Shown piece after piece: positions 25,152-27,654 of a DNA stretch of 35,566 nt (positions are counted from its first letter, which is position 1; each line of letters begins with the position of its first letter). The translations under genes were made by a program, and so were the position numbers. Below the pieces are notes generated by a model. That model did no database searches. It was not told the DNA's origin and was given only the letters and a program-made list of their open reading frames with translations. The stretch is from Burkholderiales bacterium (GTDB lineage: Bacteria; Pseudomonadota; Gammaproteobacteria; Burkholderiales; Burkholderiaceae_C): assembly GCA_025352345.1 (NCBI GenBank), contig JANXTP010000084.1, positions 1-35,566 on the forward strand, in the 5' to 3' direction.

Positions 25152-25721
25152 TCAGCCCGGTGCGGCGATGACCTCGCAGACCACCGCATCACCGGCTCGC
25201 AGCATCCCGTCGGCCTGCACCCGCGCCGTCAGCCCGCCGTGCCCGCGCATCGCGTTGTAGCCGCCGGCCCCGAGCAGTTCCTCCATCCGTGAGCACGGCT
25301 CGCACGGCCCGGTGATCTGCAGCACCACGTCGGCGCCGATGCGCAGCTGCAGGGCTTGATCCTTGAACAGGCTGCGCGCGGCCAGCAGGTTCAGCCCCGA
25401 GACCACCAGGTTGCGGCGCAGCCCGAGCGCATCGACCTCGGCCACCGCAGCCAGCGCTGCGATCACCGGCAGGTGCTCGGCCTGGATCAGCGTCACCTGC
25501 CGCTTGCTGCCACCGACCGGACCACCCGTGTTGACTTTGGCTCCTGCGCTGCGATCACCGTCCAGCCCGCGCCCGGCCAGCGCCACGGCCGAGGCCACCG
25601 ACACCGCCTGCACCCGCCGTGCCGGTCGCAACAGGATCGCGTCGAGCCGGCCGGCGCGCGGGAAACGGCAGGTCAGTGTCCGCAGCGTTGCGGCATCGGC
25701 GCTGTCAGCCACCGACAGCAC
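25152..25721 (-). CDS. MOSC-domain protein
   Basis: About 189 aa. The MOSC fold (molybdenum-cofactor sulfurase C-terminal domain) is recognised by [36 protein letters not shown], and [14 protein letters not shown] with the conserved reactive Cys. Such proteins bind or transfer the molybdenum cofactor, or act in related thiol chemistry (YiiM-like). The start is uncertain: the ORF is open from TTG at 25766, and TTG 25727, GTG 25721 and GTG 25712 are alternatives; 25721 is a compromise. It is convergent with the kinase gene, with only 12 bp between stops. The PEP-CTERM relic lies just upstream on the other strand. Confidence 0.85.
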
Positions 25722-25766
25722 CGTCAAGACAAATCCAGACGTTCTCAAGTGAGTTACAAATAACAA

Positions 25767-25886
25767 GTGTCCTCATGGGTGGTATTTTCCGTCCCGGAGC
25801 CCGCCGTGTCGGCGCTGCTCTGGTCGGGATTGCTGGCGATGGGTCCTGTGATCGCACGTCGCCGAAAGGCGATCGCCCGAGGCTGA
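25767..25886 (+). pseudogene. Orphan PEP-CTERM sorting-signal fragment
   Basis: An open frame of 39 codons too short for the ORF track. It encodes a complete PEP-CTERM C-terminal signal: VPEP, then a hydrophobic segment (VSALLWSGLLAMGPVIA), then the basic RRRK cluster and a stop. PEP-CTERM tails direct exported proteins to exosortase (EpsH/XrtA) for processing in Gram-negative bacteria. Here an in-frame TAA at 25761-25763 lies just before it, and no signal peptide or body of an exported protein precedes it. It is best read as the 3' remnant of a lost PEP-CTERM gene at a recombination or deletion junction. Translation as a tiny membrane peptide from GTG 25767 cannot be excluded. The motif itself is clear; the history is inference. 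Confidence 0.7.
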
Positions 25887-25894
25887 GCCGGGGT

Positions 25895-27499
25895 CTACGG
25901 GTTGCCGGCTCGCTTCTTCATCGAACCAATTTCGCTGCTCCAGAACACCGTGGTTGCCCGTGTGCGCTTGGCGCAGTAGAGGCCCGCATCGGCGCGATCC
26001 ATGAGCTCTTCCAGGTGCAGCTCATCGTCTCGATGGGCCACCATGACGCCGATGCTGCAACCGACGGCCAGGGCCTTGCCGTCCCGCTCGATGGGTGCTT
26101 CCAGTGCCGCGCGCAAGCGGTCGGTGAGCGCTGGCAGGCGGTCAGGGGCGACATCTTTCAGCAGCGCACAGAACTCATCGCCACCGAGCCGGGCCACGAT
26201 GTCGCCCGTGCGGAAAAAGTTGCGCAGTCGGGCGCCGATGACGCGCAACACATCGTCTCCGGCCGCGTGCCCCAGGGTGTCGTTGATCGGCTTGAACTTG
26301 TCGAGGTCTATCGACAGCAACGCAACTGGCTGGTCCTGAGCCCAGCAGGCCGACATCGCCGCGGCGGCCGCCGGCATGAACGCGCGCCGATTCGGCAGCC
26401 CGGTGAGCACATCGGTGTTGGCCGACGCGCTGATCGGGCGCACCAGCTTGTAAGCCAGCGCGCTGACCGCCAGCACCGACAGGATCAGCGACGCCAGGAT
26501 CCAGCCCTGCACCGCCGCCGCCGCATCGAGCAGCGCCGGCACCGCCTTGTTGTCGAGCTTGCCGATCCACAGCCACACGTCACCGTCCACCGACGAGGCC
26601 AGTGCCTTGACACGGATGAAGGAATAGGCGCCGCCACTCGACACCTGGATCAGGTCGGCCGGGATCGACGGGGCCGCGGCGATCGCGGTCTGTTGCCCGC
26701 CAGCGGCCGCGGACGTCGCTTCGCCATCGGCCAGCGCACCGCGCAGCTTCGCAAAGGTGCGCTGCGTGAGGTCCGCGCTCAAGGACGAGGCCAGCACGCG
26801 AGGCGGTTTGCCGGTGTCGGCGCCAGCGACGATCAACTCAAACCCAGTGAGCTTCGCGAGCCGCCGCGCTAAGCTGTCATCGATCGCCAGCGTGCCCCGC
26901 AGCGTGGCGATCGGCCGCGGCGCGAGGATGTCGGCGTTCCGGTAGGTGACCAGCTGCATGGCACCGGCGTCTCGCACCACGGTGAAGTCCAGCAGGTTCA
27001 CGGACACGCTCGGGGCCGCGTCCGCCGCGCTCGATGGCGCGCCCGCCCAGGGGTGTATCGAATACTGGATCCGTGTGCTGCGCGCCTGGTGGTTCTCCAG
27101 CATCGAATCGATGGTCGGCTGATCCCGAGTGGCCACCGCCTGCCGCAGGCCGTACTCCGAGGCCATCAGCTTGGTGCCGGCCGCCAGGCTTTCTTGTTCC
27201 TCGAAGACCTGGTTCTGCACCGTCAGGTACCCGCCCTGCAGGACATCGCGGATGGCAGCCAGCGTCAGGCCGTCGTGCCTGGACTTCAAGAACACCATCA
27301 GCCCGACCTGGATCGCGATCAGCGTCAGGGCCAGGCAGACCACCAGGCGACGCTCGTTCGTGAATGCGCTCGTGAGGCCGCGCAGCCTGCGCCACAGGCG
27401 CGGCTTCACCGACCGCAGCGACGCAGGCGCAGCCCCCGACGCCGCACGGAGGGCGGGCGACGACACGGACGACCCTTGGGTTTCGGCGTGACTGACCAT
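25895..27499 (-). CDS. Membrane-bound GGDEF diguanylate cyclase with periplasmic sensor
   Basis: A 534-aa protein: polar N-tail, TM1 about residues 51-71, a periplasmic sensor (~72-330) of the double-CACHE/CHASE4 kind (QNQVFEEQESLAAGTKLMAS, LAKLTGFELIVAG), TM2 ~333-350, then directly a GGDEF domain with no obvious HAMP linker. The cyclase has TDVLTGLPNRRAF, DLDKFKPINDTLGHAAGD, GGDEF at 439-443, and an RTGD I-site at 430-433 with correct spacing. It should be an active, feedback-inhibited cyclic di-GMP synthase. The track start is 48 codons early; no strong ribosome site marks 27499. The sensed ligand is unknown. Confidence 0.88.
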   Translation of the reverse strand: MVSHAETQGSSVSSPALRAASGAAPASLRSVKPRLWRRLRGLTSAFTNERRLVVCLALTLIAIQVGLMVFLKSRHDGLTLAAIRDVLQGGYLTVQNQVFEEQESLAAGTKLMASEYGLRQAVATRDQPTIDSMLENHQARSTRIQYSIHPWAGAPSSAADAAPSVSVNLLDFTVVRDAGAMQLVTYRNADILAPRPIATLRGTLAIDDSLARRLAKLTGFELIVAGADTGKPPRVLASSLSADLTQRTFAKLRGALADGEATSAAAGGQQTAIAAAPSIPADLIQVSSGGAYSFIRVKALASSVDGDVWLWIGKLDNKAVPALLDAAAAVQGWILASLILSVLAVSALAYKLVRPISASANTDVLTGLPNRRAFMPAAAAAMSACWAQDQPVALLSIDLDKFKPINDTLGHAAGDDVLRVIGARLRNFFRTGDIVARLGGDEFCALLKDVAPDRLPALTDRLRAALEAPIERDGKALAVGCSIGVMVAHRDDELHLEELMDRADAGLYCAKRTRATTVFWSSEIGSMKKRAGNP

Positions 27500-27654
27500 C
27501 TCGGAAAGATCGTCAGCAGCCGACCCTGACTTGAGCGCCGTGTGGGGTGCGTATTCCCTAGGGCCGTGCGCAGCGGGTTGGTCAGATGGCCCAGCGCAGG
27601 GCTTGAGGCGTGTCGTGATCGGCAGAGCCAACAGCTGGGGCACACGCGCTCAGA

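Follow-up and report, generated by a model that had tools for sequence, protein, structure and literature searches.

A PEP-CTERM tail lies between a MOSC gene and a GGDEF gene

The window analyzed here, by which we mean the whole 35,566-nucleotide stretch of contig JANXTP010000084.1 from a Burkholderiales bacterium (assembly GCA_025352345.1), carries a 39-codon frame between a MOSC-domain gene and a convergent gene for a GGDEF diguanylate cyclase (Table 1). The frame opens with GTG and closes with TGA. As the first-pass annotation had recognized, it holds the complete tripartite arrangement of a PEP-CTERM sorting signal, in which a VPEP motif, a hydrophobic segment and an RRRK cluster are followed by a short tail and a stop codon. 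That annotation was equally correct that an in-frame TAA stands ahead of the signal and that no exported protein body is attached: just 8 residues precede VPEP, where a PEP-CTERM protein would carry a body between its signal peptide and its tail. The AT-rich flank that it placed at 25735 to 25800 is also real, with a GC fraction of 0.43 at 25720 to 25779 and 0.52 at 25750 to 25809, against about 0.6 to 0.8 in the surroundings.

Inspection of the 39-codon frame revealed no signal peptide (neither a basic n-region nor a hydrophobic leader) and no visible Shine-Dalgarno sequence, a sigma-70 promoter match was not found for it, and no PEP-CTERM body was seen in the other frames beside the tail. 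The tail itself has no frameshift and stays open up to its stop codon, which means that it is either young or under some constraint. On the left, the MOSC frame can be opened as far as a TTG at 25766; its true start, however, probably lies near 25710 to 25725, since conservation with relatives begins near 25712. On the right, the stop codon of the GGDEF gene (TAG, 25895 to 25897) lies 8 bases from the TGA of the tail.

Table 1. Features at the MOSC-GGDEF junction of the window
Feature	Position	Strand	Evidence or remark
MOSC-domain gene, left flank	25152-25766	-	PF03473, 54.8 bits
Relic of MOSC/iron-operon intergenic region	25745-25789	+	AT-rich, Fur-box-like in relatives; 30/45 identity to G014
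In-frame TAA stop	25761-25763	+	Just 5' of the 39-codon frame
39-codon frame, GTG to TGA	25767-25886	+
Putative junction of relic intergenic DNA and PEP-CTERM tail	25790	.	Resolution a few bases
PEP-CTERM tail	25791-25886	+	Local profile 26.1 bits; PF07589 19.8 bits; BLAST to relatives' PEP-CTERM proteins
VPEP motif	25791-25802	+
Hydrophobic segment of tail	25803-25856	+
RRRK basic cluster	25857-25868	+	Short tail follows
TGA stop of tail	25884-25886	+
GGDEF diguanylate cyclase gene, right flank	25895-27643	-	PF00990, 144 bits; convergent with tail

The tail scores far beyond simulated sequence

The curated models place the tail just short of their thresholds. PF07589 gave 19.8 bits (E = 8e-4 over 24,736 models; cut-off, 20.7 bits), and TIGR02595, the profile that the first-pass annotation had named as the check, did match the tail, but at 12.7 bits against a cut-off of 16. 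Other PEP-CTERM family models, NF033554 and NF038126 among them, matched with their C-terminal parts only (E = 1e-4 to 2e-4). We set beside these a local profile of 28 tails of other genes, drawn from this genome and its relatives, with which all frames were scanned. The window tail scored 26.1 bits, no other place in the window reached more than 13.3, and across 300 Markov-simulated windows (10.7 Mb) the maximum was 17.3 bits, a null that rejects chance as the origin of the tail. On 409 kb of examined loci, the same profile gave at least 16.8 bits to real tails and at most 9.8 to noise. BLAST with the tail matched genuine PEP-CTERM proteins throughout the genus, in every same-genus genome searched, and in the wider family, the best at 45 to 66% identity. 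Because of this score, set against the simulated maximum, and because of these matches, we conclude from sequence comparison that the tail stems from real PEP-CTERM sequence.

The genome makes use of a PEP-CTERM system, as the first-pass annotation had predicted. Both XrtA (339.9 bits; cut-off, 208) and the VPLPA-specific XrtD (553.1 bits; cut-off, 400) exceed their curated cut-offs, a shorter exosortase-family protein is also encoded, and at least 10 intact PEP-CTERM proteins are present in frames of 218 to 489 residues. XrtD and XrtA are two different full exosortases, each with a fused EpsI-like domain (L007:1351-3003, + strand; L008:763-2499, - strand). Like the PEP-CTERM domain (PF07589/TIGR02595) that serves as the substrate tail of XrtA (TIGR03109), the window tail has VPEP, a hydrophobic helix, RRRK and a stop a few residues on, in a genome that encodes XrtA. 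It differs from that domain in falling slightly under both curated cut-offs and in belonging to a chimeric frame, and the frame differs from PEP-CTERM proteins, about 97% of which have a signal peptide (Haft et al. 2006, PMC1569441), in carrying neither a signal peptide nor an exported body.

The first codons of the frame derive from intergenic DNA

The stretch directly ahead of the tail aligns ungapped with the region upstream of the MOSC gene in a congener, G014. This alignment is collinear, at the same distance from MOSC coding homology in both genomes; its score was matched by none of 28,202 other placements in the relatives' sequence, and shuffling gave p = 0.001. A second congener, G003, matches more weakly (p = 0.04) and in a different part of the AT-rich stretch, and the alignment with G013 is not significant, so that support for the homology comes mainly from G014. 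In G014, G003 and G013 this region matches the Fur-box consensus at 12 to 13 of 19 positions, which makes the Fur label suggestive only, for 12 or more matches also arise by chance at 8 places in the window.

Because the collinear homology ends at 25789, the AT-rich stretch, the TAA, the GTG at 25767 and the residues MSSWVVFS, all of which this segment supplies, are leftover intergenic DNA. The PEP-CTERM profile starts at 25791, abutting the end of the homology, and the PEP-CTERM part accordingly begins at a breakpoint. By these alignments, the 39-codon frame is chimeric, with old intergenic sequence making up its 5' part. The tail, in contrast, is not ancestral intergenic DNA of the relatives, to whose intervals it shows no significant alignment on either side.

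Congeners carry different genes between MOSC and GGDEF

Across the genus the MOSC-GGDEF interval is variable, and may contain an iron-uptake cluster, efflux genes of the MacAB-TolC type, the two together, or next to nothing (window 25740-25897; L022:1907-12184; L073:1-15700; L025:1139-6652). G003 carries a TonB-ExbB-ExbD-PepSY-ApbE-flavoprotein-PiuC-TonB-receptor iron-uptake cluster, and G013 carries MacA-MacB-TolC together with the iron cluster. In G008, whose MOSC and GGDEF flanks are split between two contigs, MacA-MacB-TolC follows MOSC and MacA follows GGDEF. The iron cluster adjoins MOSC in G014, and other genes do so in G006 and G009. Homology with the relatives ends on the right at about the GGDEF stop. 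Neither a PiuC-type hydroxylase nor a MacB orthologue was found in the 95%-complete assembly of the window genome; within the limits of that completeness, these two markers of the relatives' iron-uptake and MacAB-TolC cargo are either gone or were never acquired. In the stretches compared, a PEP-CTERM gene stands beside MOSC at none of the six same-genus loci (G003, G006, G008, G009, G013 and G014).

A probable gene remnant at a rearrangement junction

We consider it probable that the 39-codon frame is a chimeric, nonfunctional remnant of a PEP-CTERM gene at a deletion or replacement junction. In this reading, the DNA between MOSC and GGDEF was rearranged, so that the genes found there in relatives were lost or exchanged for others and the old iron-operon upstream region (25745 to 25789) came to adjoin the final ~31 codons of a PEP-CTERM gene (25791 to 25886). 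These codons read towards the GGDEF gene and end 8 bases short of it. In the original protein they would have encoded the membrane anchor at the C terminus, recognized by XrtA after Sec export; lacking signal peptide, body, ribosome-binding site and promoter, the present frame would be inert. We infer that a full-length PEP-CTERM gene was formerly present at the junction or was carried to it, and that the event took the form of a deletion.

The first-pass annotation had likewise suggested that a PEP-CTERM gene was lost here. The chimeric frame, with its 5' part derived from intergenic DNA, makes gene loss the best reading, and the genuine, bodiless tail agrees with it; that the gene was lost at this very spot we only infer, because the congeneric loci carry no such gene. 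Unrelated sequence without a tail at this junction in relatives was to count against the suggestion. Such is literally what the relatives have, but it does not refute gene loss, because the interval is variable and holds different genes in different species. Against our explanation stand the lack of a PEP-CTERM gene at this place in the relatives examined, the search for a parent gene, which found none, the dependence of the relic homology mainly on G014, and the open, unshifted frame of the tail. Frequent duplication and loss of PEP-CTERM genes has been documented (Haft et al. 2006, PMC1569441). As with the PEP-CTERM genes gained or lost among close relatives in that study, the tail lacks a counterpart at the corresponding place in congeners; six-frame searches of the cyanobacterial pair examined there uncovered no overlooked genes, whereas here a bodiless tail is left behind.

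An improbable alternative is a module-sized insertion, in which DNA encoding the tail only was captured at the junction and a complete PEP-CTERM gene was never there. The end of homology at 25789 nearly coincides with the start of the PEP motif at 25791, no body residues remain, and the relatives examined have no PEP-CTERM gene here. It lacks a donor, however: we found no convincing DNA-level parent or donor of the tail in the tails of this genome or of 301 family genomes, where short matches only are scattered over many places and are most easily read as chance, and no mobile-element gene adjoins the tail.

The first-pass annotation had also raised the prospect of a tiny, novel stand-alone peptide. 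A functional 39-residue PEP-CTERM micro-peptide, held in the membrane through its one helix and possibly serving as an exosortase substrate or decoy, could draw on the open frame, the start codon, the intact tripartite tail and the presence of XrtA in the genome, and a 58-aa frame in G006 made of a hydrophobic leader plus a PEP-CTERM tail suggests that very small PEP-CTERM proteins may exist. We nevertheless judge a working micro-peptide quite unlikely, because the frame has no signal peptide, Shine-Dalgarno sequence or promoter match and opens with residues that come from relic intergenic sequence. It has, moreover, no homologue at this locus or elsewhere in the 301 family genomes, and its scores lie under the curated cut-offs.

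That GC-rich intergenic DNA reads as a PEP-CTERM tail by accident is very unlikely. GC-rich DNA does favor A, G, P, R and L codons, the tail had been picked by eye, and it falls under the TIGR02595 and PF07589 cut-offs; the simulated null, the three parts in the right order with a stop at the right distance, and a PEP-CTERM system in use by the genome all tell against it. An assembly error joining two places, for which one might cite 441 contigs, an estimated contamination of 4.9% and a junction at a variable spot, is extremely unlikely, given that gene order on both sides is as in the relatives with MOSC and GGDEF on one contig (G003 and G013).

Other bodiless tails and their wider meaning

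At one junction, the cargo of congeners is missing and a sorting tail survives, a concrete example of fast PEP-CTERM gene turnover and a warning against taking every short frame with a tripartite tail for a gene. If orphan tails prove common, lost exosortase substrates could be counted directly by six-frame profile searches. Such tails may be undercounted at present, as the window tail itself was missed at first look by the PF07589 search of the genome. It is a long shot that PEP-CTERM tails are detachable DNA modules, able to persist or move in the absence of their bodies, and that orphan tails (two here and one in G003) supply the material from which new proteins acquire an exosortase address.

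The second bodiless PEP-CTERM-like tail of this genome lies between BLUF-like and CrcB-like genes (G000:C278:18692-18760, + strand; L036:1435-1587; L078:4627-4779), in a 51-aa frame, ...PPPILEPETSALMLGGLALAGAVSHHRRQQAAGT, that scores 19.7 bits to PF07589. Short-frame matches in two congeners (G005:C50 and G008:C118), both at contig ends, were set aside as truncated. A 63-aa frame in a 1.1-Mb contig of G003 (G003:C16:80447-80521; L092:1930-2118, - strand) closes with FDNLQLGVSAVPEPATFGLWLAGLVGVAGLTRKRSCSALSR and, overlapping a NERD-like gene at that gene's end, is apparently another PEP-CTERM gene remnant; its tail is preceded by FDNLQLGVSA, which resembles the end of a PEP-CTERM body. In the G006 frame (G006:C208; L093:1200-1457, - strand), MNLLSKKTLSASAAIMALIGGATFYAIAPVPEPETCAMFLAGLVMAVFMARRSQKDAV, a signal-peptide-like leader runs straight into the sorting tail, and a body is missing between the two. 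Among the matches listed from 151 family genomes it has no relatives of that small size; it is followed by a terminator-like hairpin and is a possible minimal PEP-CTERM protein.
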